Origin: Chitinophagales bacterium
GTDB lineage: Bacteria > Bacteroidota > Bacteroidia > Chitinophagales > JADIYW01
Direction: 5' to 3'
NCBI GenBank assembly: GCA_023957245.1
Contig: JAMLHJ010000002.1
Location: forward strand, 248,001-312,000
Length of the DNA: 64,000 nucleotides
Below, piece by piece: positions 16,827 through 38,157 of the stretch. The stretch's first letter is position 1, and each line of letters starts with the position of its first letter. The notes under the pieces were generated by a model. It did not search any database, was not told where the DNA came from, and was given only the letters and a program-made list of their open reading frames with translations. Both the position numbers and the translations under genes were made by a program.

Positions 16827-16836
16827 GATGTTTTTT

Positions 16837-17712: not shown

Positions 17713-17716
17713 AATT

Positions 17717-19031: not shown

Positions 19032-19043
19032 CTCTGTTTATTT

Positions 19044-20553: not shown

Positions 20554-20554
20554 C

Positions 20555-20776: not shown

Positions 20777-20795
20777 TTTAATTGCCCTTTAATCG

Positions 20796-21293
20796 TTATT
20801 TAAAAAGATTTAAAACATCGGTTTTCAACTCACCAAACTTTGTTACATCATCAGGTGAAAAATTACCTGGCCCCGATGGCGTTAGTATTTTGGCAACCAT
20901 TAACTGTTCAAAGGCTTCTTTCAATATTGATTTTATATCAGCCTTATCATTTTTTATCACAAATCCATCCTTAGTGATATGGAGTTCATTTTTGCCACTG
21001 GTATATATTTTTTCTTCATATTCCTCTACATCTATCAGATAAGTATCTGCTTCTTGATTTAAAATTGAGCCGATTAAGCATCTTGTTCCTATCACTGGCT
21101 TAATGAGACGATTACCAACACCCAAACTAACTCCATAATACTCAAGCTCATCTACTAAGCCCACGACTGTACACTGCTTTTTATCCCAGTCTATAGCCGA
21201 TACCGTCCCCCAGCTCACCTGATTGGGTATCTGGCGTTTGGCTCTACCATCTAGTAGGTCTTTAAGTTTCTCTATGTTAGTTCCTGCGCTCAT
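20796..21293 (-). CDS. baseplate spike protein (Mu gp45-like)
   Basis: A 165-residue protein. The N-terminal OB-fold-like part (VSWGTVSAIDWDKKQCTVVG) is followed by GVGNRLIKPVIGTRCLIGSI and a beta-helical needle region with ELHITKDGFVIKN, then a helical tail. This is the arrangement of Mu gp45/P2 gpV central spikes, which form a trimeric needle for outer-membrane piercing. The start overlaps the hub gene's end by 17 bp. Confidence 0.7.
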   Translation of the reverse strand: MSAGTNIEKLKDLLDGRAKRQIPNQVSWGTVSAIDWDKKQCTVVGLVDELEYYGVSLGVGNRLIKPVIGTRCLIGSILNQEADTYLIDVEEYEEKIYTSGKNELHITKDGFVIKNDKADIKSILKEAFEQLMVAKILTPSGPGNFSPDDVTKFGELKTDVLNLFK

Positions 21294-22991: not shown

Positions 22992-23000
22992 ATAGTCTAT

Positions 23001-25004
23001 TTATACGCTTACAATTGCATCTTGAAGACGGTCGCTAATTTTCCCTGCCACTTGGTCTGCAAGTTGACGGATATTAACGCCTGATGCTGCGGTGAAATAA
23101 TTATTTATCGTCATAGTGATATTAGAAGCTCCACTTTTGCCAGATATTGACATTCCTGAATCTTCTTTGCTTGTATTTTTGCCTTTATCCTTTTCCTCAG
23201 AGAAAGTAAGAAGCGTTGGCTTTACGCCTTGTATTGTGTCATTAACACTTGTAGAAGAAGCTTCTTTCTTCGTTTCGTTTTCACTTTTTGGGTTGGCTGT
23301 TTCAAGTTTTTTTTCTTTTTCTTTTTCTCCAGCTGTCTCTAATTCATGAGATTGCCTGAACGCTTTGATTGCCTCAGCTCCTTTACTAGCCAATCCCGTA
23401 GGGTCAAACTTTGCGATAGTTTCCAGTATCTGCTGAAGAGGTTTTAATATGACATCCATTATCACCTCTCCGATACGCTTCAATCCTTCTAAAATACCAC
23501 CATCTCTAAAAGCAGTAACAATAGACTGCCAGTGATCATATATTGTTTTTATCACCGAGATGACAATTCCAAAAGGACCTAAAAGACTTTTAAAAATAAG
23601 GCTACCTACAACTGAAAAAATAAGCATCATTGCAGCTCCAAATTCATCCCATTTTTTAATAGCTATCGTGATAAAGGTTATCAAGGCTGCCACTATTATT
23701 ACTATTTTGAAAATAGGATTTTGAAGTGTGACAATATTCCATAATGCTTGAGATTTTCTAAGGCTGTCAATAATAGGAATTGCACCTGCAAGTATCTCTA
23801 TCGTTGGAGATAGTTGAGTGGCATAAATGCCGATTTCACCAAAGGCATCTCCAGCCCAGCTCTTGACATTGGAAAAAAACTTCTTAAAGCCACTAGCAGA
23901 TTCTTCTACTTCTGGTAGTGTAGATAAATCGGGTATCTCTTGAGATAGATTTTGAACAAAAGCAATACCACTCTCTTTTCCTGCCTCGCCAAATACTTTA
24001 GCCAGTACATTCTGTTTAGCTTGTTCGTTCATGCCTTCCATGGCTTTAGATACAGTCTGCACCGCCTCCCATGCACTCTTACCTGTTAGTTGACTGATAT
24101 CTACACCTATCTGTTTTAAGGCTTCCTTTTGCCCAGGCCCCATTTCTTTGATGGCATCACTGGCTCTTTTTAAGGATTCAACTGCTTTATCTCCATCTAT
24201 GCCCTCTTTCTCTGCTTTTGCCATAATGACCATAGCTTGATCGGCAGAGACACCCATCTCTGCAAATGCACCACTATATCTTTCCATGTTTTTCAAAAGA
24301 TTGCCAGATAGATTTGCCCCTCTTTTAAATCCTTCCTCCATCAAAGTGAAATTTTCTTCATAGCTACCTCCAAACTGCTTTGTCATTGCATTGACAGACT
24401 TGGCAACAGCCATAGAGTCTTGACCATAGACATCTGCTATCTCTCTGCTATGACGGACATACTCATTGAGAGCATCGCCACTTAGCTCGGTCAACCGCTC
24501 TATTTCCTTTTTCTGATTTTTATAATCTACTGTAAAATTTAAGGCATTGCTCATTTTTTTAGCGACTTCCATAGTTTGGTTCACTTTGATAGCCATTTCA
24601 TGCCAAATCTTATTCCCATCCTTAATTTTGTCTAATTCTTCTTGGTGTCCCACAAGTTCTTCACTTATCTCTGTTATTTTAACTTTCAGTAGGTCAACAG
24701 ACTGAGCATGCTTTGTGTAAGTATCCCACATTTCACTCTGCTCTGGGCCAGGTGCCATAGCATCAATGGCTTTTTTTAAATCATTCATTTCTGTTTCAAG
24801 CAACTCAAGGTCTGTTATGTATTTTAACAGACTCGTTTTACCTTCTTCAATTTTAGATAAAATAGTTTTAACAGACATTGCGGAACTATCCCCCATATTT
24901 GTAAAAGACTTGGAGGCAGAAGATACCGTGTCCATCATCTTTTTGACAGGCGCAGATACTCTATCCCCAAATTCTAATGCCCATTTTGTAATAATATCCG
25001 CCAT
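23001..25004 (-). CDS. tail tape measure protein
   Basis: A 667-residue protein. It has a coiled-coil N-terminus (about residues 30-150), then the TP901-type core (YVRHSREIADVYGQDSMAVA, then SGAFAEMGVSADQAMVIMAK). Two or three hydrophobic segments follow near residues 430-490 (FKIVIIVAALITFITIAI), with a Lys/Glu-rich end. It sets tail length inside the tube. At about 0.15 nm per residue, the usual rule, the tail would be roughly 100 nm. It lies just after the frameshifted chaperone, as expected. Confidence 0.85.
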   Translation of the reverse strand: MADIITKWALEFGDRVSAPVKKMMDTVSSASKSFTNMGDSSAMSVKTILSKIEEGKTSLLKYITDLELLETEMNDLKKAIDAMAPGPEQSEMWDTYTKHAQSVDLLKVKITEISEELVGHQEELDKIKDGNKIWHEMAIKVNQTMEVAKKMSNALNFTVDYKNQKKEIERLTELSGDALNEYVRHSREIADVYGQDSMAVAKSVNAMTKQFGGSYEENFTLMEEGFKRGANLSGNLLKNMERYSGAFAEMGVSADQAMVIMAKAEKEGIDGDKAVESLKRASDAIKEMGPGQKEALKQIGVDISQLTGKSAWEAVQTVSKAMEGMNEQAKQNVLAKVFGEAGKESGIAFVQNLSQEIPDLSTLPEVEESASGFKKFFSNVKSWAGDAFGEIGIYATQLSPTIEILAGAIPIIDSLRKSQALWNIVTLQNPIFKIVIIVAALITFITIAIKKWDEFGAAMMLIFSVVGSLIFKSLLGPFGIVISVIKTIYDHWQSIVTAFRDGGILEGLKRIGEVIMDVILKPLQQILETIAKFDPTGLASKGAEAIKAFRQSHELETAGEKEKEKKLETANPKSENETKKEASSTSVNDTIQGVKPTLLTFSEEKDKGKNTSKEDSGMSISGKSGASNITMTINNYFTAASGVNIRQLADQVAGKISDRLQDAIVSV

Positions 25005-25022
25005 TTGTTATATCTTTATACT

Positions 25023-25190
25023 ATGAAACGCTTAGCTGTTGCTTTTAGAATCCTTGTCTTTCTGTTAATTATAGCATATTCTGCTATAATGGGATTTTTA
25101 TTGGCTACTAACCTTTCTGCATTTACTTTTCTGCTTATTATTTCTTTCTGGTTGCTAGTGGAATGGGTAATGAGAAGTGAAAGGGTTTGA
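25023..25190 (+). CDS. small two-helix membrane protein on the opposite strand (possible moron)
   Basis: A 55-residue ORF (MKRLAVAFRILVFLLIIAYS onward) with two strongly hydrophobic helices and a charged C-terminus. It is the only plus-strand ORF in the 16-kb minus-strand tail operon. It fits exactly in the 190-bp gap between the tape measure start (25004) and the end of the chaperone extension (25196). An insert of this kind in a late operon suggests a separately expressed lysogenic gene, for example superinfection exclusion. I see no clear promoter. It could also be chance. Confidence 0.45.
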   Translation: MKRLAVAFRILVFLLIIAYSAIMGFLLATNLSAFTFLLIISFWLLVEWVMRSERV

Positions 25191-25195
25191 TAGTT

Positions 25196-25441
25196 CTACC
25201 TTTTCCCATACATTGCCTCTATCACTTCTACAGCTACTTTTCTGATTTCATTACCGATCATCACTGCCAACATTTCATTTTCAATTCTTGTCAAATAGAC
25301 CCAGTCTTGAAACTTCTGAGCCCAATCTCGGTCAGATAAGCTATCAGGTGCCATACCATATTCTTTGCGTATAATAGCATTGATTTTTTCTATATCTGCA
25401 CCTGATTCATCTGACGGATCTATCCGAAATCGAGCTATATC
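25196..25441 (-). CDS. tail assembly chaperone, -1 frameshift extension
   Basis: This reading frame has no early ATG of its own. It begins exactly where the slippery site of the upstream ORF would deliver ribosomes: after slippage it reads DIARFRIDPSDESGADIEK and continues for 81 codons to a TAG at 25196. The result is a 206-residue fusion, the counterpart of lambda gpGT. The segment DWAQKFQDWVYLTRIENEML is well-formed protein sequence, so it is under coding constraint. Confidence 0.85.
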   Translation of the reverse strand, partial: DIARFRIDPSDESGADIEKINAIIRKEYGMAPDSLSDRDWAQKFQDWVYLTRIENEMLAVMIGNEIRKVAVEVIEAMYGKR

Positions 25442-25815
25442 TTTTTTAGTCCAGACTGAGCTTCTTCGATAAGCTGACTGATTTGTTGAAGGAGATTAGC
25501 ATATATCGCACCATCGTACTCATAAGCTGACTTATCTCCCTCTAGCACACAAGCAATCATTATTTTCTGAATCAAATCTGTATCTTGCTTTTGACCAGCA
25601 CTTGCAACAGCTTGCACCTCTTTTCGTCCGGGTTTCTTGATTAGATAGAAAAACTCATCACCGCCAATCTTCTCTTCAATTCTTCTTTCAGTAGTAACTG
25701 TTTCATAATTGACTCTAACACTCACCTCTCTGAGATTGCGCCTGCCACCCACTTTAGCTGCATGGTCATTGATTTCCGTCTCACCGTATGGCTTGATTAT
25801 ATTCACTTCACTCAT
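25435..25815 (-). CDS. tail assembly chaperone (gpG-like), zero-frame product
   Basis: A 126-residue protein lying between the tail tube gene and the tape measure gene. It ends SGLKKI followed by TAG. The last codons read CTA AAA AAG, containing the slippery heptamer A AAA AAG at 25441-25447. In tailed phages the short and frameshifted forms both coat the tape measure during tail assembly and neither stays in the virion. The N-terminal half has a GGDEFFYLIKKPGRKEVQAV pattern. The identification rests on position plus frameshift logic. Confidence 0.8.
   Translation of the reverse strand: MSEVNIIKPYGETEINDHAAKVGGRRNLREVSVRVNYETVTTERRIEEKIGGDEFFYLIKKPGRKEVQAVASAGQKQDTDLIQKIMIACVLEGDKSAYEYDGAIYANLLQQISQLIEEAQSGLKKI
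25441..25447 (-). promoter_or_regulatory. programmed -1 ribosomal frameshift site
   Basis: On the minus strand the bases read A AAA AAG in the correct phase (preceded by CT), the same heptamer that E. coli dnaX uses. The zero-frame stop follows two codons later and the -1 frame stays open for 81 codons. Confidence 0.85.
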
Positions 25816-25834
25816 AGTTGATGATTTTGCTCAC

Positions 25835-26269
25835 TTATATAATATTCCATTCAATATGACTTACGATAAGGTCACTTTGATAGATCATAGACTTATCGTT
25901 TTGATTACTCTCCACACCTCTGCCAGTAAATTGACAATTTCTAATTCTGTCTTTCAGCACTCTACCATCTGGCAATGCATATTCCACAGTGATATCAAAT
26001 GGTGCGATATCTGATAGACGTTTGCCTGGAGGAAGTGCGGACTGTATAGCATCATATTCCTCTTTGAGAAGTGATATAGAAGCCTCTGCCTGATAATTGC
26101 CAGAACCTCTACCTACGGGATATTTCCCTGCTCCATAGATGTTTTCGATTTCTTCTGAGTCTTTATAAGACAAGGTAGTGATACCTTCCACATCTCTACC
26201 CATGATATTGACAGTCGCATTGTTCCAACCTTGAAGACTGCCGAATTTATTAATAATTGTTTCTACCAT
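25835..26269 (-). CDS. tail tube protein (Mu gpM-like)
   Basis: A 144-residue protein following the sheath gene. It has the tube-type pattern NIMGRDVEGITTLSYKDSEE near the N-terminus, then GSGNYQAEASISLLKEEYDA, PFDITVEYALPDGRVLKDRI and CQFTGRGVESNQ. These match the small beta-barrel tube proteins of Mu-type myophages that stack into the inner tube. A composite repeat separates it from the sheath gene. Confidence 0.78.
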   Translation of the reverse strand: MVETIINKFGSLQGWNNATVNIMGRDVEGITTLSYKDSEEIENIYGAGKYPVGRGSGNYQAEASISLLKEEYDAIQSALPPGKRLSDIAPFDITVEYALPDGRVLKDRIRNCQFTGRGVESNQNDKSMIYQSDLIVSHIEWNII

Positions 26270-26279
26270 TTTATTAGAT

Positions 26280-26432
26280 TTTAGTTGTTAGTTTTTAGTT
26301 TTGAGTATTGGGTATTGAGTAGTGAGTAGTGAGTATTGGGTAGTGAGTATTGGGACGATGGTCGATATTTCGTAATTCATAATTCTCAATTCGTCCTTCG
26401 TCCTTCATAAATCATAACTCATAACTCATAAT
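26280..26432 (-). repeat. composite heptamer repeat 1 (sheath-tube gap)
   Basis: In the direction of transcription the gap reads short tandem 7-mers: TTATGAG/TTATGAT units, a GGACGA block, a CCAATAC/TCACTAC block and a CTAAAAA block just before the next ATG. Confidence 0.8.
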
Positions 26433-26439
26433 TTGCCAT

Positions 26440-27681
26440 TTATCCCACTTGATTGGTCAATCCTAAGTCGATTTCAAATTCATGGACAATACCATCAGAG
26501 ACGATTTGTGCTTTACCTGTTACAGGGCTTTCATCATTGACAATCTGTTTCCCATTGATATAAAAATCAAAACCGCTGATTTCATCATCTATCATCATGT
26601 TTTCAAGTGCTTTATTGACAAGTCCTTCCCAATAACTAATAGTAGTACTTTTGATAAATCCAGACTGTGGATCTTTCTTTGCTGTTGATTTGACTACAGG
26701 CAATAGTGCTAGTCTTATCACTCTTGCTGCTTTATTCCACACCCTATTGTTTTCTATATAGGCATAATCGGAGGTCTTAGCAATCGCCGTTGGTGAGTTT
26801 TGAAAATATACACCTGCATAACCTTCATAGGAAGCGGCATAGATATATCCTTTGTCATTGATAGACTTCAAATCAACTTTTGACAAGGATTCAATATCTT
26901 GACCATCTGATAACCATCCTTTCAACCACAATACACCATCTGTTAATGGATAATTGGCTTGTGCTTTTTTGAGCCTTGGTTTATCTTTGATATTGACAGA
27001 ACCTATATTTTCATTGATTTTACGCACTGCCAACATGCCCATTGTAGAGCCTACTGCGGCATAGTCATCATAGTCACCAGAACCTAATGCCACTATGTGC
27101 GGATCTTGAGCTACAACTACACTACAATGCTTAGCATTCTTAGTTCGTAAATCAACAAGATTATTCACTACAATAGCTCCTGAAGATTTACCTTCCAATA
27201 TTACAAAGTCGATAAACCTATTCTCCAGAGCCAGTGCATCTACTAATGATGTTTCTATCAGCTCAATATGAGTAGGTAGAGTATTGAGATTGTCATCAAA
27301 ACCAACAAAACCTATACCCTTAATATCTTTATTGGCTCGGATAGTAGGTAAAAGTCCTGCTATATAATCCTTTACGTTGCTATCCACACCATTCGCTGGT
27401 TCTACTCCAGCAAAATACAAGGTAGCATCAGGTGCCAATCTAAATACTTCACTAATGTGATGATGTGCCAACACATTTTGGTTGGCATCATAAGCAGGCG
27501 TAACGCCCAATTGTTCTGCATCCATAGTTTGCATAAGTCTCACAGCCTTATACTCTTCCAACTCTGTCAATGTATCCATAGGCATACAGCTGACAAGTAG
27601 AAATACACTATCTGTATTGTCTGCTCTTCTTCCCAGCCCTCCTTCCATCCTGTTGATGCTTACTCCAGTTAATTGTGCCAT
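26440..27681 (-). CDS. tail sheath protein (DUF2586-like)
   Basis: A 413-residue protein whose place (before the tube gene) and pattern fit the contractile sheath of Bacteroidota Mu-like phages: VSINRMEGGLGRRADNTDSV at the start, a middle segment ANKDIKGIGFVGFDDNLNT, and SKVDLKSINDKGYIYAASYE further on. The C-terminal domain ends with GIVHEFEIDLGLTNQVG. The sheath contracts to drive the tube through the envelope. Confidence 0.8.
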   Translation of the reverse strand: MAQLTGVSINRMEGGLGRRADNTDSVFLLVSCMPMDTLTELEEYKAVRLMQTMDAEQLGVTPAYDANQNVLAHHHISEVFRLAPDATLYFAGVEPANGVDSNVKDYIAGLLPTIRANKDIKGIGFVGFDDNLNTLPTHIELIETSLVDALALENRFIDFVILEGKSSGAIVVNNLVDLRTKNAKHCSVVVAQDPHIVALGSGDYDDYAAVGSTMGMLAVRKINENIGSVNIKDKPRLKKAQANYPLTDGVLWLKGWLSDGQDIESLSKVDLKSINDKGYIYAASYEGYAGVYFQNSPTAIAKTSDYAYIENNRVWNKAARVIRLALLPVVKSTAKKDPQSGFIKSTTISYWEGLVNKALENMMIDDEISGFDFYINGKQIVNDESPVTGKAQIVSDGIVHEFEIDLGLTNQVG

Positions 27682-27693
27682 GTTTTTTATTTT

Positions 27694-27945
27694 TTAGTTT
27701 TTGTTCTTAATTTGTTTTAATAAGTTTTTAAACTGACGGCCTTGTCTTTGTTCTTGGCTTATCTGCCTGCGAAAGACGGTTACTTTGCCACCGTTTGAAT
27801 GTTCAATAGCTTCGTTTTCATCTATGAAGACATTGCCGTCACAACAAGCAAATAATATGTCTATATCTGAAAAATTATCAAACATTTTCTTAGCTCTTGA
27901 TTCCAGATCCGTAGCGCAATATATCTTGATTTCTGACTCTGACAT
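27694..27945 (-). CDS. small phage protein of unknown function
   Basis: An 83-residue protein between the amidase and the sheath genes. It has a mixed alpha/beta pattern (SDIDILFACCDGNVFIDENE) and a basic C-terminus (RQGRQFKNLLKQIKNKN). Not recognised. Position suggests a head-tail connector or tail accessory. Confidence 0.5.
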   Translation of the reverse strand: MSESEIKIYCATDLESRAKKMFDNFSDIDILFACCDGNVFIDENEAIEHSNGGKVTVFRRQISQEQRQGRQFKNLLKQIKNKN

Positions 27946-27963
27946 TTTTCTTTGTTTATGGGT

Positions 27964-28374
27964 TTATAATGTCATATACTCTGCTTTCGCATTGAATGAC
28001 GGACAATCTTTTTTCACCCCAGGGAAATCTCTATGCCCTTGTATAATTGCATGAGGATAATTGCCCTTTAGCTCTGTCAACAGATTGATTAAGCTGTTTT
28101 TTTGAGCCGTGGTTCTATTATCTATAGCCTTACCTGTGTTATCTACTCCTCCGATATAAGCAACATTGATACTTTTTGAATTATACCCTTTCACGCCATT
28201 GCTGACCTGACTGACAGGCAATAATGACACCACTTGACCATCTGCCTTGATGATATAATGATAACCAGGCATCTTCCAACCCAACTCAGCGTGCCAGTAT
28301 CTTTGCATAGAAGACACAGTCGCACTTTGTGGCGTAGCTGTACAGTGTACTACTATATAATCAATCTGTCTCAT
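27964..28374 (-). CDS. endolysin, N-acetylmuramoyl-L-alanine amidase
   Basis: A 136-residue single-domain amidase (Amidase_2/T7 lysozyme-like fold). It has zinc ligands in YIVVHCTATP (residue 10) and in GHRDFPGVKKDCPSF near the C-terminus, and the central YHYIIKADGQVVSL. It cuts the bond between MurNAc and L-Ala in peptidoglycan at lysis. There is no signal peptide, so export by a holin is expected. Overlaps the upstream gene by 1 bp. Confidence 0.9.
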   Translation of the reverse strand: MRQIDYIVVHCTATPQSATVSSMQRYWHAELGWKMPGYHYIIKADGQVVSLLPVSQVSNGVKGYNSKSINVAYIGGVDNTGKAIDNRTTAQKNSLINLLTELKGNYPHAIIQGHRDFPGVKKDCPSFNAKAEYMTL

Positions 28375-28991
28375 TATGCGGCAGCTTCAATAGTAAATGT
28401 GACCGTTCCTTCTACAAATCCACTATAGGCAATCGCTTTAATTGTTACAGCTCCTTCTGCCAGCATTGTTACTACACCTTCATCATCCACAGTCGCTTTC
28501 TGTTCATCAGAGCTGACAAAATATACTGAGGTGTCCACCTGATCTGTAGCAGGCGTAATTGTCAATGCAAGATTGACTGTTTCTCCTACTTTAGGGGCTA
28601 CAACTGCTGCAATAGCTATTGCGGAAGGTGATTTTCCTACATAATCTTCTAATGCTTTAATGACCGACTTTCTATTCTTTCCACTCTGCTCACTAGCAAT
28701 ATACCCATTGGCTACACTTCTTTGTAGCGACTTTATACCTGCAATTACGATAGCTGCATTAGCAGATAAGTAATCCACAGAAGTTTCACTTTCTACATCG
28801 GGCGTACTATCACCTTTAGAGTAGGCATATACAGACAGACCGCTCGCCTGTGCGTGTAAGTATGCACGATTCTCACTTCTGAATAAATAGCCATCTGAAG
28901 TTGCATAGCACATTGTATCATGCTCATAAGTATCAAAGTGAGTTCCTACTTTTGTTTTCAGCGCATTGGCTGTATAATGTTGTCTTTTCAC
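28374..28991 (-). CDS. head-region protein with C-terminal Ig-like (Big_2) domain
   Basis: A 205-residue protein just downstream of the major capsid gene, after the terminator. The last 75 residues look like a bacterial Ig-like domain of the Big_2 type (VYFVSSDEQKATVDDEGVVT, followed by GAVTIKAIAYSGFVEGTVTF). Ig-like domains on phage heads or tails often decorate the particle and bind surface sugars. The N-terminal half is unrecognised. A decoration or head-completion protein is likely. Confidence 0.6.
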   Translation of the reverse strand: MKRQHYTANALKTKVGTHFDTYEHDTMCYATSDGYLFRSENRAYLHAQASGLSVYAYSKGDSTPDVESETSVDYLSANAAIVIAGIKSLQRSVANGYIASEQSGKNRKSVIKALEDYVGKSPSAIAIAAVVAPKVGETVNLALTITPATDQVDTSVYFVSSDEQKATVDDEGVVTMLAEGAVTIKAIAYSGFVEGTVTFTIEAAA

Positions 28992-29010
28992 GTTATTGAT
29001 TTTTGATTTT

Positions 29011-29039
29011 AAAAAATAGGGCTGTCATAAAACAGCCCT
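29011..29039 (-). terminator. intrinsic terminator after the major capsid gene
   Basis: Read on the minus strand, GGGCTGT and ACAGCCC form a perfect 7-bp stem around 6 nt, followed by TATTTTTT. It may cut transcription after the capsid gene, giving more capsid than tail message. Confidence 0.8.
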
Positions 29040-29045
29040 TGGTTG

Positions 29046-30026
29046 CTACACCGTACCATCTACGAAGGCAGCAATGCCTTCGCTTCTAAATGCTACTCCA
29101 ATGAAGTGTAATCTAAAGCCGATAGTACTCTCCCTATACTCAGGGTTTTCTTTTGCATCTCTTGCATATCTGATAACAGAACCTCTCGCTTTTGCAGTAC
29201 TTCTTTTGTGAAAGACAACAGAGGCATCTTTACCAGCATCTGAGCTTTCAAAAGGAAGTTTTTCAAGCCCTGCATTATACTTAGGCGGATAAGTAGCTTC
29301 ATAGGTCTTAAAGCCATAGAAGTTATCTGCTATCGCACCGCTACTTGTATTTTGATACCTTGTTGCAAATCCCTTGTCTTCAATAAGTAAGTCTGCCACA
29401 TGATCAGGAGATAAGACTAATACTCTTCCAGACTTAGGTACATTCAACTTGTCAAGCTGTTTTTTGAGTGTAATCAAGTCTTTTGAACACAAACGCTTTC
29501 TTCCATTGTCAGCGTCACCAGTAGTCTCTAATACTGGAGTTGCACCCGAATTTTCATCTGGAGCAATGGCATGCAATGCATGCTCTAATGTCTTGTCTTC
29601 AAGTTCTTCTCTATGCTGCAACTGCACATCAGATACTTTCTCATAAGGCAATGCATACAGCTCATCATCTGTTACAGTTGTATTTTCTGTATCGTATTTG
29701 TTGAGAGCCAATACCACCTGACCATCTTCTCTGTTATTGCTCACAATAGGATAGATATTGTTATTGATCAATACCTTTGGAGCTGCACCTTGTACCGGTA
29801 TCTTGATAACATCATTGTTGACCCATTGATTTTTACTCGGCACTTCTTCCAGCCAACTGCCATCATGTCTGAATTGTTTTATCATCTCCTTTTCTGCCAG
29901 TTCATTTTTTATTGGCAAGGCAACCACTGCCACCGCAGCCAGTGCAAATACTGCATGTCCTTCAACAATGCAATCCAAGGCAGTTACTACTGCCAAAATC
30001 ATTAGTGTTAATATCCACTTTTTCAT
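29046..30026 (-). CDS. major capsid protein
   Basis: A 326-residue protein placed directly after the protease/scaffold gene. It has HK97-fold-type features: a helical segment EDKTLEHALHAI, the DLITLKKQLDKLNVPKSGRV spine, then LVLSPDHVADLLIEDKGFAT and DNFYGFKTYEATYPP. The C-terminal segment IGFRLHFIGVAFRSEGIAAF is also typical. The first 40 residues are strongly hydrophobic (MKKWILTLMILAVVTALD and on), odd for a capsid, and may be a cleaved delta-domain or a membrane-targeting peptide. Confidence 0.78.
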   Translation of the reverse strand: MKKWILTLMILAVVTALDCIVEGHAVFALAAVAVVALPIKNELAEKEMIKQFRHDGSWLEEVPSKNQWVNNDVIKIPVQGAAPKVLINNNIYPIVSNNREDGQVVLALNKYDTENTTVTDDELYALPYEKVSDVQLQHREELEDKTLEHALHAIAPDENSGATPVLETTGDADNGRKRLCSKDLITLKKQLDKLNVPKSGRVLVLSPDHVADLLIEDKGFATRYQNTSSGAIADNFYGFKTYEATYPPKYNAGLEKLPFESSDAGKDASVVFHKRSTAKARGSVIRYARDAKENPEYRESTIGFRLHFIGVAFRSEGIAAFVDGTV

Positions 30027-30027
30027 A

Positions 30028-30178
30028 ATTTTTGTTTTTTAGTTTTTAGTATTGGGTATTGGGTAGTGAGTATTGGGTATTGAGATTTAAGAGCCAAGAG
30101 CCAAGAATCAAGACTTTTCGTCCTTCGTAATTCGTAATTCGTAACTCATAAATCATAAATCTTAACTCATAAATCATA
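30028..30178 (-). repeat. composite heptamer repeat 2 (protease-capsid gap)
   Basis: The whole gap consists of TTATGA-type, ACGAAGG, TCTTGGC/TCTTGAT, CCAATAC and CTAAAAA heptamer blocks in the order seen in the other copies. Confidence 0.8.
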
Positions 30179-31316
30179 AATTGCTTGCCAAATACGCTTT
30201 TTCCAATTCAGCAAATTTTTTCGGGTCATTGACTGCAAGAGCTTCTAAGCCTTTAGGATCATTAGCAAGATAATCGTCAAAAGTCCATTTGCTTTTAATA
30301 GCTTCTCCTGAACTGTCATCATCTATCTGGACTGATAATTTTGTGATAGACGGCATCACACTCAATGCCTTTTTTGTTGATTCAAAATCCTTGCGTGCCA
30401 AATCCTTATAAGTAGCTACCATATCAGCACCTATCTTTTTGTCTTTCACCGCATCAGCTACCAGCGCACTGATCACCGCTTCTTGCTGTTTGTCTATTAA
30501 GGCTTGAAGTGCCTCTGTTTTTTCTGCACTCTTTCCCAGTGCTTCTACAGCTTCCAATATTTGTGCATCCGTAGCATCTTTTGCCAGCTTGAGCGTGGCA
30601 ATCAATTCATCTCTGTTTTCCATGTTGTTGTCTGATTTTAATGCTTTTATTTCTATTGTATGAGGTGCGCCACACGCCGCTATCATCATAGCTGTCTGTG
30701 GGCTTACTTTTTCTTTTTGTGTCATCACTTCGGTGATAAAACCATTTTCTAAAGCCTCTTTGGCTGTCAACCATACATCTCCTTTTGACCAGTTTTGTTC
30801 TATCTCATCTTCTTTCAGTCCAGTCAATTCTGAATATCTACTGCGATATTGATTGGTGATATCTCGCAATAACTTTAATCTGCTGGCAACCTCATCTTCA
30901 TTGCCCTCTATCCACGCTTTAGGCTTATGATACATATACTGACCATTGGTAGGCATTTTAAATTGATCGCAATAAGAGGCTATCAAAGTAGCAGCAGATG
31001 CCACGATAGCACCGCCTATACCTACAACACTACCCTCAAATCTCGAAAGCTCATTGATAATCTGATTGGCGGAAAATACATCACCACCCGGAGAGTTGAT
31101 ATACAACACTACATCTGCGACACCATCCTCTATTAACCTATCCAACTCATACTTAAATTCCGAATGAGAAAAACTCCATATCGTTCCTTCGATATGTATA
31201 TGCGCTTTGCCCTCTTTCTTCTCTGCTCGAATATTCAAAGGATAACGCTTAGCTATCTCTGACCAATCTCTATCTCCGTGAGCTACTATCAACAATGCTT
31301 GTTTGTTTATGTGCAT
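30174..31316 (-). CDS. ClpP-like head maturation protease with scaffold tail
   Basis: A 380-residue protein. The S14/ClpP-type protease domain spans about residues 30-200: VADVVLYINSPGGDVFSANQ, the active-site Ser in IVASAATLIAS, and the His in YMYHKPKAW. The C-terminal half (about 215-380) is Lys/Glu/Ala-rich and helical and serves as the internal scaffold. The protease cleaves scaffold and capsid during head maturation. I start at ATG 31316; the in-frame TTG at 31343 overlaps the late promoter element. Confidence 0.85.
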   Translation of the reverse strand: MHINKQALLIVAHGDRDWSEIAKRYPLNIRAEKKEGKAHIHIEGTIWSFSHSEFKYELDRLIEDGVADVVLYINSPGGDVFSANQIINELSRFEGSVVGIGGAIVASAATLIASYCDQFKMPTNGQYMYHKPKAWIEGNEDEVASRLKLLRDITNQYRSRYSELTGLKEDEIEQNWSKGDVWLTAKEALENGFITEVMTQKEKVSPQTAMMIAACGAPHTIEIKALKSDNNMENRDELIATLKLAKDATDAQILEAVEALGKSAEKTEALQALIDKQQEAVISALVADAVKDKKIGADMVATYKDLARKDFESTKKALSVMPSITKLSVQIDDDSSGEAIKSKWTFDDYLANDPKGLEALAVNDPKKFAELEKAYLASNL

Positions 31317-31340: not shown

Positions 31341-31475
31341 CAAACTTGGCAGGCTTTTTTCTTTTTTAAAAATCTCGATTCCAAATCATACCGTAAATAC
31401 GGTATGATTCAGACAGTAAACACGGTACGATTTGGAATCGACTTTTCTTTAACAATATCCTTACCTGCATCTTTG
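31341..31475. promoter_or_regulatory. bidirectional late promoter with 65-bp dyad
   Basis: A dyad at 31376-31440 has outer arms CGATTCCAAATC and GATTTGGAATCG, and an inner pair ATCATACCGT/ACGGTATGAT around AAAT. A third half-site is ACGGTACGAT at 31422-31431. On each side, exactly 27 nt beyond the dyad, comes a TAnnTTTG-like element: CATCTTTG (31468-31475, plus) and CAAGTTTG (31348-31341, minus). The two late operons start here in opposite directions, so an activator bound to the dyad would switch on both. Confidence 0.72.
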
Positions 31476-31492: not shown

Positions 31493-31990
31493 ATGGCAAA
31501 AGACAAAGAAAAGGCAGTGGCAAAAAAGCTATTCATCGAACAACTCATGAGTCGCAAGGATATCGCTGAATATATAGGTATTACAGAAAAGACTGTGGGC
31601 AAATGGGTGCAAGTCGAAAATTGGGAGCAAATCAGAGATGCCAAACTCAATAATAGCAAGTCAAGAAGCGAAAATATTAAAAAGGTGATTGACGAGCTGA
31701 CCAATATGACCTTACAGATCATTGAAAAAATCAAACATGCAGAAAAGCATGGAGATACTGATACGTTGTTGAACCTCAAAAAAGAGACTACTCGTCTAAG
31801 TCAAGAAGTGGCGATGTACAACAAAGCATTAGAGAAATTAGAAGCTGAGTATAAAATCAGCCTTTCCACCTATCTCGATGTGATGGAAGATATCTTCCAG
31901 TCACTCAACAGACACAACCATCAGCTGTGGATGCAGACACTCGACTTTCAAAAACAACACCTGCAAAGTGTAGCCAATAAAATCGGTTAA
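31493..31990 (+). CDS. terminase small subunit-like protein (DUF1804 type)
   Basis: A 165-residue protein with an N-terminal helix-turn-helix (LMSRKDIAEYIGITEKTVGK, then WVQVENWEQIRDAKL), as found in small terminases and Mu gp27-like proteins. A long helical region follows. It is directly upstream of the large subunit, two nt apart. It should recognise phage DNA for headful packaging. It is the first gene of the plus-strand late operon. Confidence 0.75.
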   Translation: MAKDKEKAVAKKLFIEQLMSRKDIAEYIGITEKTVGKWVQVENWEQIRDAKLNNSKSRSENIKKVIDELTNMTLQIIEKIKHAEKHGDTDTLLNLKKETTRLSQEVAMYNKALEKLEAEYKISLSTYLDVMEDIFQSLNRHNHQLWMQTLDFQKQHLQSVANKIG

Positions 31991-31992
31991 GC

Positions 31993-33513
31993 ATGAAAAA
32001 AACGGATAAGCTAAGAGTAGAGGCATACCAAAAGAGCTTGGAGCTGGCAAAGTCCAGAGGCTTGGCTAATCCTTTTGAGTCCGAATGGGAGCAAAAACAG
32101 GCCATCGAAAGAGCAAAAAACGATTATGCTTTTATGGTCAAGAGATACTTTCCGCATTATGCAGCTTTTGATACTCCTGATTTTCATATTGACTTTGCCA
32201 AAAAAGTAAAAGCCAATCCTGCATTCAAGGGATTTGCACAGTGGGGACGTGGACTGGCTAAGTCTGTAGTCAATAATATCATGCTACCTTTCTGGCTTTG
32301 GATCAATGAAGAACAGTGCTACTTCGTACTCATAGGAAACAACTATGACAGAGCCGCACAGCTACTTGACGACATCAGAGCCGAGTTTGAAGCCAATCCG
32401 CAAATACAAAAGGATTTTGGCACACAAATCAATCCAGGTAATTGGGAGTCGGGCTTCTTTATCACCAAAAGTGGATTTATCGGACAAGCTATCGGTGCTG
32501 GGCAATCTGCAAGAGGATTGAGAGTCAAAGACAAAAGACCCTCTCATATTGTGGCAGATGACTTAGAAACTAAAGACATCAACAAAAATCCAAAAAGACA
32601 AAGAGAATACGCCAAATGGATAGAAGCTGAAATATTGCCGACCATGGATGGCGATGTCAGACGTTTTGTACAGGCAAACAACAAGTATGCAAAACGGATG
32701 ATACAAACCATACTACAAGAGGAACATCCGGACTGGCTTGTGCATCAAATCAATGCTTACGACCCAGTGACATACCAGCCTGCATGGCAGGGTAAGTATT
32801 CTGCTACTTACTACAAGAGCTTAGAAACTGAAATAGGCATCATTGCAGCAAAAAGCGAATATAATAACGATCCTCACAGCGAAGGAACCATATTTTTAGA
32901 GTCTCAAATACAGTTTGCCAAAAGACCACGTCTCAACCAGTTCAAAATTATTTATGGATGGTGGGATGTTGCTTATGGTGGTACTGCTACATCTGACTAC
33001 AACGCCGTAGTAGTACAAGGGCTGTACAATCCCGATTTTTGGGTTTTAGATGTTTTTCTAAAACAGTGTAAAATGGATGAAGCTATATCTTTCATGTGCC
33101 AATATCAAAAATCATTGCCTAAAACAGTGATGATACATTGGGTATTTGAAGCCCAGTTTTGGAATGATGCAGTAAAAGATACCATTGCCGTAGTAGAGAA
33201 AAAAGAGAATATCAAACTCAATATCATCAAAAAGAACGTAGCCAAAGTACGCAAATACGACAGAATACTATCTCTACAACCTTACTACCAAAACGGACGT
33301 ATCTTTTATGATGAGAGACTCAAATCTCATAACGATGCACAGCAGGCACTCTCTCAACTGTATGGCATAGAACCCGGATATTCCACCCATGATGACTACC
33401 CTGATGCGCATCAGGCTGGTATCGCCATGTTAGAACCTTATGTTACAAACGAGAACGGCGAATATGCAGAAATACTCATGGGCGATTACAAACCTTCTGA
33501 AAATTTATACTGA
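31993..33513 (+). CDS. terminase large subunit
   Basis: A 506-residue packaging motor. The Walker A-like motif GRGLAKS is near residue 85, a Walker B-like HIVADDLETKD near residue 188, and the RNase H-type nuclease begins with GWWDVAYGGTATSDYNAVVV near residue 318, holding the metal-binding Asp residues. It translocates DNA into the prohead and cuts it. The next gene starts within its stop codon. Confidence 0.88.
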   Translation: MKKTDKLRVEAYQKSLELAKSRGLANPFESEWEQKQAIERAKNDYAFMVKRYFPHYAAFDTPDFHIDFAKKVKANPAFKGFAQWGRGLAKSVVNNIMLPFWLWINEEQCYFVLIGNNYDRAAQLLDDIRAEFEANPQIQKDFGTQINPGNWESGFFITKSGFIGQAIGAGQSARGLRVKDKRPSHIVADDLETKDINKNPKRQREYAKWIEAEILPTMDGDVRRFVQANNKYAKRMIQTILQEEHPDWLVHQINAYDPVTYQPAWQGKYSATYYKSLETEIGIIAAKSEYNNDPHSEGTIFLESQIQFAKRPRLNQFKIIYGWWDVAYGGTATSDYNAVVVQGLYNPDFWVLDVFLKQCKMDEAISFMCQYQKSLPKTVMIHWVFEAQFWNDAVKDTIAVVEKKENIKLNIIKKNVAKVRKYDRILSLQPYYQNGRIFYDERLKSHNDAQQALSQLYGIEPGYSTHDDYPDAHQAGIAMLEPYVTNENGEYAEILMGDYKPSENLY

Positions 33514-33938
33514 TGATGACATATCTCGAAAAAAATGACCTCATTACTCACAGCTTTGAACGATTTATTGATGAAAGCTCTGATGACTTTGAAGATACAC
33601 TGGAAAATACTGAAGCTGAAAATATCGGTATCATAAAAAGCTATCTCGGTGCGCTCTACGATGTGGACACAATATTTGACAAGACCACACCCATTCGCAA
33701 TCCACTGCTGATACGCATACTGGTAAAAATGGTGCTGTACGACATCATCAGAAGAAATGCTGCTAGAAAAGTACCTACCGACTATGTGGAAGATTACAAA
33801 GATGCGATGAGCATACTCGAAAAGATAGCATTTAGAAAACTAGAACTGGCAGGTCTGCCACCAGCTACCGACTCAAACGGTGAAACAATCAGATATTCCA
33901 CTTATGGCAATAATTCAAACCCTAATTTTTATATATAA
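33513..33938 (+). CDS. DUF1320 (Mu gp36-like) head-completion protein
   Basis: A 141-residue protein with the DUF1320 pattern: YLEKNDLITHSFERFIDESS, EAENIGIIKSYLGALYDVD and RNPLLIRILVKMVLYDIIRR. Mu gp36 relatives act at the head-tail connector. Here it precedes the portal rather than following the capsid, a reordered position compared with Mu. Overlaps the terminase end and the portal start by 1 bp each. Confidence 0.78.
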   Translation: MMTYLEKNDLITHSFERFIDESSDDFEDTLENTEAENIGIIKSYLGALYDVDTIFDKTTPIRNPLLIRILVKMVLYDIIRRNAARKVPTDYVEDYKDAMSILEKIAFRKLELAGLPPATDSNGETIRYSTYGNNSNPNFYI

Positions 33939-36532
33939 TGGCAAACTTTCTGACAAAAATAGAGAATAGATTAGAAAACTTTTTTCTCAGCAGAGCCGAT
34001 GAAAGACAGTTGCGTGTACATGCTGAAATGAAAAAAGACAAACAATTGAGTGGTCAAATAGATATGCAACAGGAAAGCATGCAAGTACAGACTCTAAGAG
34101 AATGGAAAGCTGCACTGCTTATGGCGACTGATACGCAAAACCCTGACCGCTCTTTATTACAAACCTTATACGATAATCTACTTTTGGATAATCACCTGGC
34201 ATCTATCATAGAAAGTCGCATCATACACTCTCAGCGCGCACCATTCAAAATAATAGACAGTAGCGACAATGAGGTAGATGAACTGTCGGAACTGTTTAGA
34301 AGACCGTGGTTTGAAGACTTTGTCAAAATGGCATTAGAGGTCAGATTTAGAGGTGCGCAGCTCATAGAGCTATTTGAGCTTGACGAGCGCACCGGAGAGC
34401 TTAAAGAAGTAGAGCTTATCCCCATGGGACATTTCAATCCGGTAAAAGGTATCATCATCAAACAGCTGGGTGATGAAAACGGATGGAACTACAATCAAGC
34501 TCCACTGTCAAGATTTTACTTGCAGGTAGGCAAAGACAGAGATTTGGGTATGTTGGCAAAAATGGCACCTATCGTATTGGGTAAAAAAATGGGATGGGGA
34601 TCATGGTTGGACTACCTTGACAAATACGGTGTAGGAAATCTGTTTGTCACTACCGAACATCAAGACATGACCGCACTCAAAAGATTAGAGAATGCAGCAA
34701 GAAACTTCAAGGCGAATGGCTGGATGGTCACTAACGGCAATGAGACTTTTGAGATAAAAGGAAATGAAGCAGGCAATCCGCAAAACTTTGACCTGCTCAT
34801 GGATAGGGCTAATTCGGAAATGAGTAAGCGAGTCTTAGGTGGCGCAGGGCTAACAGATGAACGCTCTTTTGTAGGCAGTGCAGAGATACAGTTTAAACTG
34901 GCAGAAGACAGATACAACTCTGACCTTCTGCTTTTAGAAAACCTCATCAATCAAGAGCTGATACCCAGACTTGTTATGCTCAGCCCGGTATATGCACCAC
35001 TGGCAAACACTACCTTTGAGTTTAGAGACAAACCTGAAGACCTCAAAGACCTAAGAGATACAGTAGCCGCATTAGCACCACACTTCCGTATGGACGTGGA
35101 AGAAGTGAGCCAAAGATTAGGCATCACACTTTTAGACCAAAAAGACAATACAGGTATTACCGACAACGGTATTCAAAAAAAAAAGCCTGAAATAGACGCT
35201 CGTACGCAAAGGAGTATTTTATACGCCGAGCTGGATAGTTTTTACAATGATGTTTGTTGCTTGCACGAACATTCCCTTCAGGCACTCGACTTCAGTAAAT
35301 GGGATGAGCTGATAGACCAAGTGGCAAAACAAATGCACGAGGGCAAACTCAAACCTCAAGACCTCAATGTAAAAATGATACAAACCACTTATGATGAGCT
35401 GAATGATGCAGCACACCAAGGTTATGGTAAAGATTGGATTTCATTTCCATCTGACGGCAAAGGCACGCTACCCAATGAGCTGAAAAAAAACCTATACATG
35501 TTTTCAGGTGCGAAAACCTATAGTCAACTGAAGGAACTCAACGACCTGCTATATGACAAAAACGGCAAACTGAGACCTTATAATCAATATGAAGTACTGG
35601 CGAGAAAAATCAACCGTAAGTACAACAAAAACTGGCTACAGGCAGAATGGCAGACCGCAAAGACAGCAGCGCAAATGGCGCAAAAATGGGAGCAGATACA
35701 AGCCACCAAAGACCTATTCCCAAATCTCGAATTTAGAACCGTAGGAGATGACAGAGTGAGACCTGCACACAAAAAGTTAGACGGTATCATCAAACCCATA
35801 GATGACGAGTTTTGGAGTACACACTACCCACCCTTAGATTGGAGATGCAGATGTGATGCAGTGCCGACCGCCGCCGACCCCAAAGGTGAAATACCAGAAG
35901 ATATGCAAGAGCCTAAATTTGTGGGAAATGTGGGAGTTGACGGCGAGATATTTCAATCTAATCATAATTTCTTCAGACTGATTAGAAGCGATGAAAACGC
36001 AGGACGAAACATGGAGCTGATGAAATTGAATGCGCCTTATGAAGTTGTATATAAATCTAAAAATGACAAGAAAGTTTACAGGAGCATTTTCTACGATAAA
36101 TCAGACTATTCCCAAAACTTAGAAAGTGCTATCAAGATAGCAGACAATCTTAATATAGATGTACGAATCAGACCACATTTAGATACAAATATTGCAACTG
36201 GAAGAAAGAATCCTGAGTATTTCATTAATCATTATGTTTCAGACTTAAAAATAAAATTTAAAAAGGATAATTACAATGGCATCACTAATGCATTTAAAAG
36301 CGCTAGGCTTCAAAAGGTAGAGTCTATTGTTTTTGACTTTACTCACACATTTAAAACCTTAAATATTACAGAAGTAAATCGACTAATACTAAGCAACATA
36401 AACGAAAAACGAGGGAAGCAGTTTAAGGAGGTAATATTTATTTATAAAGACAACGTGGTGCGTGTAGAGAGAGAAACCATTGTAAACAAAGAACTTAGAA
36501 AAGCCCTAGAAAAGCTAAAAGCCGACTCATAA
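33938..36532 (+). CDS. fused portal (DUF935) - MuF head protein - nuclease-like C-terminal domain
   Basis: An 864-residue fusion. Residues about 1-420 are a DUF935 (Mu gp29) portal, with ETFEIKGNEAGNPQNFDLLM and VLGGAGLTDERSFVGSAEIQ. About 430-660 is a MuF-type minor head domain, with RTVGDDRVRPAHKKLDG, DDEFWSTHYPPLDWRCRCDA. The last ~170 residues form a separate domain (SAIKIADNLNIDVRIR, KNPEYFINHYVSDLKIKF, QKVESIVFDF) resembling the CdiA C-terminal tRNA-nuclease fold. MuF proteins are known to carry toxin-like tails that may be delivered with the DNA. In Mu, portal and F are separate genes. The coding end forms a terminator-like hairpin. Confidence 0.85.
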   Translation: MANFLTKIENRLENFFLSRADERQLRVHAEMKKDKQLSGQIDMQQESMQVQTLREWKAALLMATDTQNPDRSLLQTLYDNLLLDNHLASIIESRIIHSQRAPFKIIDSSDNEVDELSELFRRPWFEDFVKMALEVRFRGAQLIELFELDERTGELKEVELIPMGHFNPVKGIIIKQLGDENGWNYNQAPLSRFYLQVGKDRDLGMLAKMAPIVLGKKMGWGSWLDYLDKYGVGNLFVTTEHQDMTALKRLENAARNFKANGWMVTNGNETFEIKGNEAGNPQNFDLLMDRANSEMSKRVLGGAGLTDERSFVGSAEIQFKLAEDRYNSDLLLLENLINQELIPRLVMLSPVYAPLANTTFEFRDKPEDLKDLRDTVAALAPHFRMDVEEVSQRLGITLLDQKDNTGITDNGIQKKKPEIDARTQRSILYAELDSFYNDVCCLHEHSLQALDFSKWDELIDQVAKQMHEGKLKPQDLNVKMIQTTYDELNDAAHQGYGKDWISFPSDGKGTLPNELKKNLYMFSGAKTYSQLKELNDLLYDKNGKLRPYNQYEVLARKINRKYNKNWLQAEWQTAKTAAQMAQKWEQIQATKDLFPNLEFRTVGDDRVRPAHKKLDGIIKPIDDEFWSTHYPPLDWRCRCDAVPTAADPKGEIPEDMQEPKFVGNVGVDGEIFQSNHNFFRLIRSDENAGRNMELMKLNAPYEVVYKSKNDKKVYRSIFYDKSDYSQNLESAIKIADNLNIDVRIRPHLDTNIATGRKNPEYFINHYVSDLKIKFKKDNYNGITNAFKSARLQKVESIVFDFTHTFKTLNITEVNRLILSNINEKRGKQFKEVIFIYKDNVVRVERETIVNKELRKALEKLKADS

Positions 36533-36544
36533 GAAACGGCTTTT
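36517..36544 (+). terminator. hairpin over the stop codon of the portal fusion gene
   Basis: AAAAGCCG and CGGCTTTT form an 8-bp stem around a 12-nt loop containing the stop codon, with only four T in the tract. It could attenuate transcription into the downstream head genes, but the weak T-run leaves this open. Confidence 0.5.
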
Positions 36545-36626
36545 AGGTGGTGGGGCAAGTTGCCTATTCCCACATAAGAACTATTTCTAGCTCCTATGGA
36601 CAAATATAAGTAATAAATTTAAATAA

Positions 36627-36935
36627 ATGATAGAAGTGATTAACAAACTAAAAACCAAACGATTCTGTATGCTCAATGCGTTATACGAATTTATGGAAGG
36701 AAACACCCAAAAATGGTGCAATCTAAAAGAATTATGCCAATCCCAAGGGATTCCTTTTGACAGCAACACTTTTGCTTATCTGCAAGAAGAAGGTTTGATT
36801 AAAATGTACGGTGCCGCATTTACCTGTTTTCTTTCTCATGACGGCGTGAGGGCAATAGAAGAAGCTTGGGGGAATCCGCACAGGGAAACAATGTATTTCC
36901 CAGCCATCGCCAATATGACACCGCAAAATGGCTAA
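36627..36935 (+). CDS. small phage protein of unknown function
   Basis: A 102-residue protein with a winged-helix feel (FMEGNTQKWCNLKELCQSQG, LQEEGLIKMYGAAF). Not recognised. It is separated from the fusion gene by 94 bp and a hairpin, and overlaps the gpG-like gene by 8 bp. Being next to a toxin-like domain makes an immunity protein possible, but nothing in the sequence proves it. Confidence 0.5.
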   Translation: MIEVINKLKTKRFCMLNALYEFMEGNTQKWCNLKELCQSQGIPFDSNTFAYLQEEGLIKMYGAAFTCFLSHDGVRAIEEAWGNPHRETMYFPAIANMTPQNG

Positions 36936-37437
36936 AACAAACAAAACACCGGACTTTCTCGCAATTGCGGATATGCTCAAAGCAGACATGCGAAGACATG
37001 CCAAAGTGTACTGTCTCAAGTGGTTTGACGACAGCTTTCAAAATGAAGGGTTTACCGATGCGGCTTTTGATGAATGGCCAAAAAGAAACCCGAACAAAGA
37101 CCCGGACAGAGCAGTAATGACAGACACCACTTTTCTGCGCAAAAGTATAAACGTACTGCAGGAAGATGAAAACACAATTGTCTTTGGCACTCACGTACCT
37201 TATGCAGCAGTACATAACTACGGATTGAGAGTCAGAGCCATACAAAACGTCAGAGCGCATCACAGGCTCTCTAAAAACGGAACCCGACACCAAGTGCAAG
37301 CTCACAGTAGAAAGATGGACACACAGTTCCCTAAACGGCAATTTATGGGCGAATCTAAACAAATGATGGGTGGGCTGGATAACTGGCTCATTACTCAAAT
37401 AGAAAAGAGGTTTAAAACCGATTTAAAGAACGTTTAA
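36928..37437 (+). CDS. virion morphogenesis protein (Mu gpG-like)
   Basis: A 169-residue protein with the gpG pattern: FDEWPKRNPNKDPDRAVMTD, TFLRKSINV, VFGTHVPYAAVHNYGLRVRA and FPKRQFMGESKQM. In Mu, gpG is a head/tail-joining protein whose loss stops tail attachment. Position in the head operon agrees. Confidence 0.85.
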   Translation: MAKTNKTPDFLAIADMLKADMRRHAKVYCLKWFDDSFQNEGFTDAAFDEWPKRNPNKDPDRAVMTDTTFLRKSINVLQEDENTIVFGTHVPYAAVHNYGLRVRAIQNVRAHHRLSKNGTRHQVQAHSRKMDTQFPKRQFMGESKQMMGGLDNWLITQIEKRFKTDLKNV

Positions 37438-37448
37438 ACTATATATAA

Positions 37449-37991
37449 ATGCAAAATTTTAAAGAATTGTACAAAGAGCTATCTGATAAACTGACAGAAA
37501 ATATAGAAGACATCAGATGGATAGACCTGTGGAACTCGCAAGTCTATCACCTTGAAGAAGAGCATCCATTCCCGACACCCGCTATCTTTCTGGCATTTCG
37601 CTCTTCGCAGATGAATGATGTAGGAGTCAAAGTGCAAAACCTCATCATGCAAGTGGATGTATTTGTGTTTTACGAAACTTTCTTAGATACCTATAAAGGG
37701 GCGTATAATCAAAAAGATGCTTTAGCTTTTTTGGACATTATGGACAGTATCAACCAAACACTACATGGCAGTAGCGGAGAAAACTACAGTTCTATGCGCC
37801 GTATTGCTTTTTCTCCTGTAGATACCGGAGGAAGTGGCAATCTATGGTCTATTACTTATGAAACAGCTTTGGTGGACTACTCAGCCGTGAAAAAGTACAT
37901 AGATGTAGATATAGACGGTGTAGAAATAGAAAGAGGAGACATCATCAAGTCGGCTGTCGATTTGTCAAATGGATATGTTATACCCGGTTAA
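37449..37991 (+). CDS. putative tail completion / terminator protein (Mu gp37 position)
   Basis: A 180-residue protein, last in the plus-strand late operon. Its pattern EEHPFPTPAIFLAFRSSQMN, followed by IMQVDVFVFYETF, resembles small tail-completion proteins. It is supported by place after gpG but not by a firm motif. Its end overlaps the convergent HTH gene by 14 bp. Confidence 0.5.
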   Translation: MQNFKELYKELSDKLTENIEDIRWIDLWNSQVYHLEEEHPFPTPAIFLAFRSSQMNDVGVKVQNLIMQVDVFVFYETFLDTYKGAYNQKDALAFLDIMDSINQTLHGSSGENYSSMRRIAFSPVDTGGSGNLWSITYETALVDYSAVKKYIDVDIDGVEIERGDIIKSAVDLSNGYVIPG

Positions 37992-38157
37992 AGATGATGT
38001 TCTCAATAGTGGAAGGACTGCGGTAGTATTTTTCTGACAACTTACAGATGATGTATTCTGTGGTGTATTTTCTTGCACCATTTTCTTGTATAGCACTCAT
38101 CTCTTTAAAGTCATGGCGTATCGCCTTATACATACGTTGAATATTGGATGTTATCAT
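37978..38157 (-). CDS. small HTH protein, candidate late activator (Mor/C-like by position)
   Basis: A 59-residue protein from ATG 38157. The C-terminal half (RKYTTEYIICKLSEKYYRSP, STIENIIFNRV) fits a helix-turn-helix of the kind at the end of Mor/C activators. It lies just beyond the terminator of the early operon, with its own upstream inverted repeat, which is the genomic place of Mu gene C. Too short for a full Mor fold. Identity as the activator of the 31.4-kb promoter is a hypothesis. Confidence 0.5.
   Translation of the reverse strand: MITSNIQRMYKAIRHDFKEMSAIQENGARKYTTEYIICKLSEKYYRSPSTIENIIFNRV

Follow-up and report, generated by a model that had tools for sequence, protein, structure and literature searches.

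The window, by which the whole analysed stretch of 64,000 nucleotides is meant, lies within a 3.09-Mb genome and carries a Mu-like prophage. It is placed with the Mu-like transposable phages by its MuA- and MuB-like transposition genes (phrog_310 and phrog_296) together with Mu-like head genes. The left end of the prophage (about 15.1 kb), flanked by two host genes, was placed by gene content alone, and the right side is the region past the S24 repressor (48180-48854). The late genes are organised in two operons which diverge from a gap of 176 bp, where the protease gene starts at 31316 on the minus strand and the small terminase gene at 31493 on the plus strand. The early region is transcribed leftwards and is convergent with the rightward late operon. 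The genes concerned are listed below.

11866-13338: sigma-54 host gene, left flank of the prophage
13383-14858: asparaginyl-tRNA synthetase-like host gene, left flank of the prophage
15159..31316, minus strand: left late operon (protease, capsid, sheath, tape measure, baseplate hub, distal genes)
21277-22257, minus strand: baseplate hub gene of the left late operon
23001-25004, minus strand: tape measure gene of the left late operon
26440-27681, minus strand: sheath gene of the left late operon
29046-30026, minus strand: capsid gene of the left late operon
30174..31316, minus strand: ClpP-like / Mu I-like head protease, first gene of the leftward operon (PF00574, 8e-22; weak PF10123)
31493..37991, plus strand: right late operon (small terminase, terminase, adaptor, portal/head, neck, tail completion)
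31493..31990, plus strand: small terminase, first gene of the rightward operon (PF10668, PF06056)
31993-33513, plus strand: terminase gene of the right late operon
33938-36532, plus strand: portal/head genes of the right late operon
37978..38157, minus strand: 59-residue helix-turn-helix (HTH) protein, proposed late activator, final gene ahead of the convergence point
44540-45457: MuB-like gene of the early region (phrog_296)
45594..47654, minus strand: MuA-like transposase, start of the early region (phrog_310, 1e-59)
48180..48854, plus strand: S24/CI-like repressor

One further early-region protein (38894-39445) has a sub-threshold match to PF05704, a capsular polysaccharide synthesis family.

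The putative operator and promoter boxes of the gap

The original prediction described in this gap a dyad of 65 bp with outer arms of 12 bp, an inner palindrome of 10 bp and a third half-site. The dyad is indeed present and its arms proved to be longer: the outer arms TCGATTCCAAATC (31375-31387) and GATTTGGAATCGA (31429-31441) are perfect over 13 bp, and the inner palindrome AATCATACCGTA-AA-TACGGTATGATT at 31384-31409 has arms of 12 bp. The third half-site is real as well and belongs to a second dyadic unit of 23 bp (31409-31431). Both units (31386-31408 and 31409-31431) form tandem repeats of 83% identity arranged about the global axis at 31408.

31341..31348 (read 31348-31341), minus strand: -7 box CAAGTTTG of the late promoter facing left, its start being predicted around 31336
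31368..31372, minus strand: T-tract at the -33 position of the leftward promoter
31375..31441, no strand: compound dyad operator, 67 bp, axis 31408, 13-bp perfect outer arms
31386..31408, no strand: operator unit 1, dyadic, centre 31396.5
31409..31431, no strand: operator unit 2, dyadic, centre 31419.5, a tandem copy of unit 1
31443..31446, plus strand: T-tract at the -33 position of the rightward promoter
31468..31475, plus strand: -7 box CATCTTTG of the late promoter facing right, its start being predicted around 31480

In comparison with 100 dinucleotide shuffles the gap of the window reaches z=11.3 for its palindrome score and z=7.9 for its direct-repeat score, neither of which is equalled by any shuffle. 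The operator core has no second copy elsewhere in the window, its minus-strand match being the dyad matching itself, and no further operator copies above shuffled expectation were found in the window or in the relatives.

The flavobacterial -7 box has the consensus TAnnTTTG and spans positions -12 to -5 (PMC9723704); the starts at 31336 and 31480 are predicted from this convention. Both boxes of the window read CAnnTTTG, thus with C in place of the first T of the consensus. Each of them is located 27 nt beyond the dyad at 31376-31440, exactly the distance that had been claimed for a TAnnTTTG-like box on each side, and because the boxes are equidistant from the dyad, their midpoint (31408) is also the dyad axis. 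The outermost dyads are centred about 49 bp upstream of each predicted start, which is near the site of the Mu activator Mor, bound at -51 to -36 (PMC4287176).

Geometry of the gap in related phages

Relatives were collected by a terminase search (three Flavobacteriaceae genomes, five viral contigs and the isolated phage Peternella_1) and by a profile-based terminase search, which added a further 80 viral contigs. The terminase of the window is 56-71% identical to those of relatives, the Mu-like Peternella among them, and in most relatives the protease gene and the small-terminase gene point away from each other across a similar gap. It had been expected that the dyad would be kept in this gap; the architecture and the box spacing are conserved, the letters are not. 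Operator letters vary by phage group (TTAGTA-N9-TACTAA types, TTCGGTAAC..GTTACCGAA, CCCATnATGGG and others). Direct repeats are found at p<=0.05 in 24 of 55 gaps, with an offset of 22 in 19 of them, 21 in four and 23 in the window only, and as regards palindromes about half of the relatives' gaps are not individually distinct from shuffles.

The distances of all CAAA-to-TTTG pairs within the gaps were determined without reference to the dyad. The spacing amounts to 131-134 bp in 50 of the 55 non-redundant gaps, the window included (38 loci have exactly 132 bp, eight have 131, three have 133, and the window has 134). The bin of 130-134 bp holds 50 pairs, the bins of 125-129 and 135-139 bp none, and the control orientation one; the exact pair is absent in 5 of 54 close relatives. 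In the gaps the dyad axis coincides with the midpoint of the boxes. In a midpoint-aligned profile of 38 loci (about 28 effective) the second position of the box, which played no part in the selection, is A in 100% of cases on either side, and the first position is C in 50-71%. The aligned relatives carry TTTT at 35-38 bp from the axis, corresponding to the -33 position (93-100% per position on the leftward side), and half-sites at 1-6, 16-21 and 23-28 bp from it. Pairwise covariation revealed two signals, an inversion centred on the axis and a direct repeat with a period of 22, each beating all 100 column shuffles. Weaker centres of inversion lie 11 and 22 bp to either side; the column shuffles keep relatedness in, and similar sequences were down-weighted.

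The box spacing follows the repeat length and equals about 88 bp plus twice the repeat: a period of 21 corresponds to 130-131 bp, 22 to 132 and 23 to 134, as in the window. Locus L052 (with the near-identical L053, L054 and L098) has an extra unit of 21 bp and a spacing of 151 bp, that is 88 + 3 x 21, and can be regarded as a natural experiment on array length. In another four loci (L036, L068, L069 and L073) the -7 box ends 5 nt ahead of the terminase start codon, so leaderless late mRNAs are predicted there.

The layout is retained in distant relatives, whose terminases are 24-35% identical. Two further contig sets were gathered with distant terminases, neither of them used to set the spacing rule. 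The first (69 loci) contains 28 pairs at 130-133 bp vs 3 and 7 in the flanking bins, the second (57 loci) 23 pairs vs 7 and 7, and strong repeats in these sets are mostly 21 bp long. The exact pair is present in about 40% of the distant loci and absent in about 60%, so the feature should be called widespread and not universal. Boxes lie 132 bp apart with a period of 22 in an Elizabethkingia phage, and 130 bp apart with the same period in a P. gingivalis phage. A second, distant Mu-like prophage of the same genome (L110, G000:C1:90000-104000) has a spacing of 132 bp, a 22-bp repeat and other operator letters. The hankyphage gap has no box pair at 130-134 bp; in hankyphage p00 (L105, 8108-8323) the same genes diverge, repeats of 21-22 bp are visible by eye (CATG..CTTTAAA) and the boxes are 145 bp apart. 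Repressor-silencing RNA-seq has been published for the hankyphage group.

The HTH protein as a candidate ligand

The HTH protein encoded at 37978-38157 had been put forward as the factor acting on the dyad. Homologues of 56-78 residues occupy the same position in most loci that reach that far; 38 of the 47 loci counted have one, and four of the nine misses are duplicate loci with a match in another search, while in five loci long enough to contain the gene no recognisable HTH was found. The protein has no Pfam or PHROG family match, and none of 37 family members matches Mor (Pfam-A, E<=0.1). It has one Cys, and its fold is predicted with confidence (pLDDT 89, pTM 0.71): a long helix is joined by a small beta hairpin and the helix-turn-helix. 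The fold search returned generic HTH matches, the best with Z 6.2 to TnpE and those to sigma region-4 domains with about 5. Homology to Mor/C was considered and dropped, as Pfam, a PDB sequence search and the fold search yielded no match or generic HTH matches only. With matches absent or generic, nothing is concluded on the kinship of the fold.

Divergence of the operator between phages follows that of this protein. After divergence of terminase and protease was removed, the partial Mantel correlation between operator and HTH distances is 0.425 (p=0.001, n=29 loci), a test whose inputs are short sequences and an operator distance devised for this analysis. The corresponding value is 0.065 (p=0.23) for the small terminase, 0.11 for portal, -0.08 for neck, 0.13 for tail completion and 0.085 for capsid; the adaptor, the best of these five other genes, reaches a weak 0.19 (p=0.03). 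Of the seven phage genes tested, the proposed candidate is the only one that strongly tracks the operator beyond phylogeny. Linkage does not explain this association, since the small terminase gene adjoins the operator and the HTH gene is 6.5 kb away. The Mantel result is an association and not binding, and it leaves the sign of regulation (activator vs repressor) unfixed. When 398 genomes of the order were searched, the top three HTH matches outside the window's genome all came from terminase-bearing genomes. Judged from these comparisons, the HTH protein is the best ligand candidate for the operator.

The HTH gene of many relatives has, by eye, its own promoter of the TAnnTTTG type, and the late boxes mostly start with C. 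From this difference one may suppose that the HTH protein is expressed early or in the middle phase and that the late promoters would depend on an activator. The HTH gene is apparently transcribed as a unit by itself. Immediately upstream of it, a terminator-like hairpin followed by a TAnnTTTG-type promoter was noted in L003, L006, L021, L023, L031, L047 and L069. In the window, an inverted repeat AAATAAGT/ACTTATTT within 38158-38260, upstream of the gene, is possibly a regulatory site.

The adjoining gene (38238-38477) encodes a zinc-ribbon protein of 79 residues with CPIC/CDQC spacing and weak matches which include Mu Com; it was rejected as an Ogr-like activator because it is not conserved in the relatives' loci. 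The last early genes of hankyphage (L105, 1178-1444) and of a P. gingivalis phage (L106, 1889-2227) encode small proteins which are 39% identical to each other and resemble counterparts of the HTH protein. Remote kinship with it appeared suggestive by eye, but profile comparison does not support it (hhalign probability only 1%).

Proposed late control and its relation to known systems

The dyad, its repeats, the boxes, the conserved geometry and the co-variation with the HTH protein are all features of the sequences themselves. In our judgement the gap is very likely a two-way late promoter, with an operator that would be bound by the HTH protein as the activator of both late operons. Two outward core promoters, each with a T-tract at about -33 and a CAnnTTTG box at -7, mirror each other across 31408. 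Between them, the half-sites of the operator recur with a period of 23 bp (in relatives 21-22 bp), close to two turns of the helix. Transcription of the early region would supply the 59-residue protein, several dimers of which may bind the array cooperatively. At either end of the array the last dimer, some 49 bp ahead of the start, would recruit sigma-A RNA polymerase to the weak -7/-33 pair, and one nucleoprotein complex would in this manner turn on operons of about 16 kb and 6.5 kb. What we infer from sequence is that the protein binds, that it activates and does not repress, how many dimers take part and that both promoters fire simultaneously; the original idea that they would fire through one activator complex has the same standing. 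A bolder version can be entertained tentatively, with the chances somewhat against it: an undescribed family of HTH proteins of about 60 residues might build a rigid double-ended complex, a short filament on the two-turn repeat array that holds two polymerases at once in mirror positions, with obligatory co-firing of the packaging and structural operons in Bacteroidota Mu-like phages. The axis and each -7 box are about six helical turns apart, and by the rule of about 88 + n x period the length of the array would set the spacing of the promoters.

A symmetric dyad in the space between divergent genes often turns out to be the operator of a repressor, and an S24 repressor is encoded in the prophage. 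The dyad could therefore be a site at which an S24/CI-like protein, or the HTH protein acting as a repressor, silences the late operons in the lysogen with no activator needed; the HTH association by itself would fit either sign of regulation. This is held to be unlikely, since the operator is situated outside the core promoter (outermost dyads at about -49, the -33 T-tract free), where activators typically bind, Mor for instance at -51 to -36 (PMC4287176), the late boxes are off consensus and the boxes of the HTH gene on consensus. Moreover, only one of the loci has a recognisable counterpart of the window's S24 repressor, many loci ending before that region.

The ligand could also be another protein, e.g. 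the neighbouring small terminase, which has an HTH and whose gene starts 52 bp from the dyad, so that the site would serve autoregulation or packaging. This is quite improbable: the small terminase is the nearest gene, yet it does not track the operator beyond phylogeny (it was rejected as the ligand for want of a partial correlation), and the zinc-ribbon gene is not conserved in the loci. Still less credit is given to a gap that is mainly a gyrase site. Situated about midway along the prophage, the gap occupies the same junction upstream of the I protease as the Mu G-I gap, where gyrase cuts at 17879 and gene I starts at 18056; nevertheless, a host gyrase fails to explain an operator diverging in step with a phage protein, or a fixed box spacing. 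A gyrase site could be present alongside the promoter. AT-rich gaps yield many short palindromes, and about half of the relatives' gaps are individually unremarkable, so a chance palindrome, or a terminator or mobile element remnant, has to be mentioned; it is barely credible in view of z=11.3 against shuffles in the window and an architecture kept in independent phage sets, and a palindrome arisen by chance is ruled out by the shuffles and the conservation in relatives.

The proposed two-way promoter was expected to be unlike Mu, and this is correct. In Mu the late genes are served by four promoters, Plys, PI, PP and Pmom, which are separate from one another and all depend on C (PMC4287176), and the middle promoter Pm is activated by Mor, whereas here a single compound bidirectional operator is shared and the candidate HTH protein has no Mor/C Pfam match. 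Likeness to Mu remains in that the phages are related transposable phages, the gap corresponds to the junction that precedes protease gene I in Mu, and the dyad is just upstream of a non-consensus core promoter, as is the Mor/C dimer site.

The layout is not unprecedented, however, because the pO and pP promoters of P2 share one activator site. The operon logic is the same, with terminase-portal in one direction and scaffold/capsid in the other (protease/capsid here). In the P2 record one Ogr activator site (3057-3087, centre 3072) is placed midway between the starts 3016 and 3127 (midpoint 3071.5); here, too, one site is equidistant from both starts, by sequence geometry with predicted starts. 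In the P2-like phage Smp131, PP' and PO' contain the same TGT-N12-ACA element (PMC3931495). This Ogr site is absent from the gap of the window and present in 1 of the 50 gaps, and neither the HTH protein nor its zinc-ribbon neighbour has the Ogr/Delta zinc-finger motif CX2CX22CX4C. The P2 activator is a zinc-finger protein and the candidate here an HTH protein of another phage lineage; the single P2 site contrasts with an array of 21-23-bp repeats, and the P2 starts are 111 bp apart in contrast to about 144 predicted here. P2 has two more late promoters, while no second operator copy was found here.

With P2 already annotated with one activator site shared by pO and pP, the principle is not new. 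What is new with respect to P2 is the other lineage, the unrelated candidate activator, the multi-unit operator, the Bacteroidota core boxes and the spacing rule. The literature searched contained no described late activator for Bacteroidota transposable phages, and nothing was found on phage bidirectional late promoters or on late promoters of these phages. The proposal would thus give a concrete model of their late gene control (activator, operator, two starts and a spacing rule) and a P2-style solution, one symmetric switch for the packaging and structural operons, with an unrelated candidate activator. Operators so diverse in letters and locked in geometry also provide a natural set for studying the co-evolution of a small DNA-binding protein and its site.

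In bacterial bidirectional promoters divergent transcription likewise arises from sequence symmetry; in those of E. coli a single -10 element serves both directions and one polymerase shuts out the other (PMC12825309), whereas the gap described here has two complete core promoters separated by about 130 bp. The DriD/CCNA_03891 promoter of Caulobacter likewise has an activator site between divergent units (PMC12340889), and DriD activates one direction only (PMC12340889).
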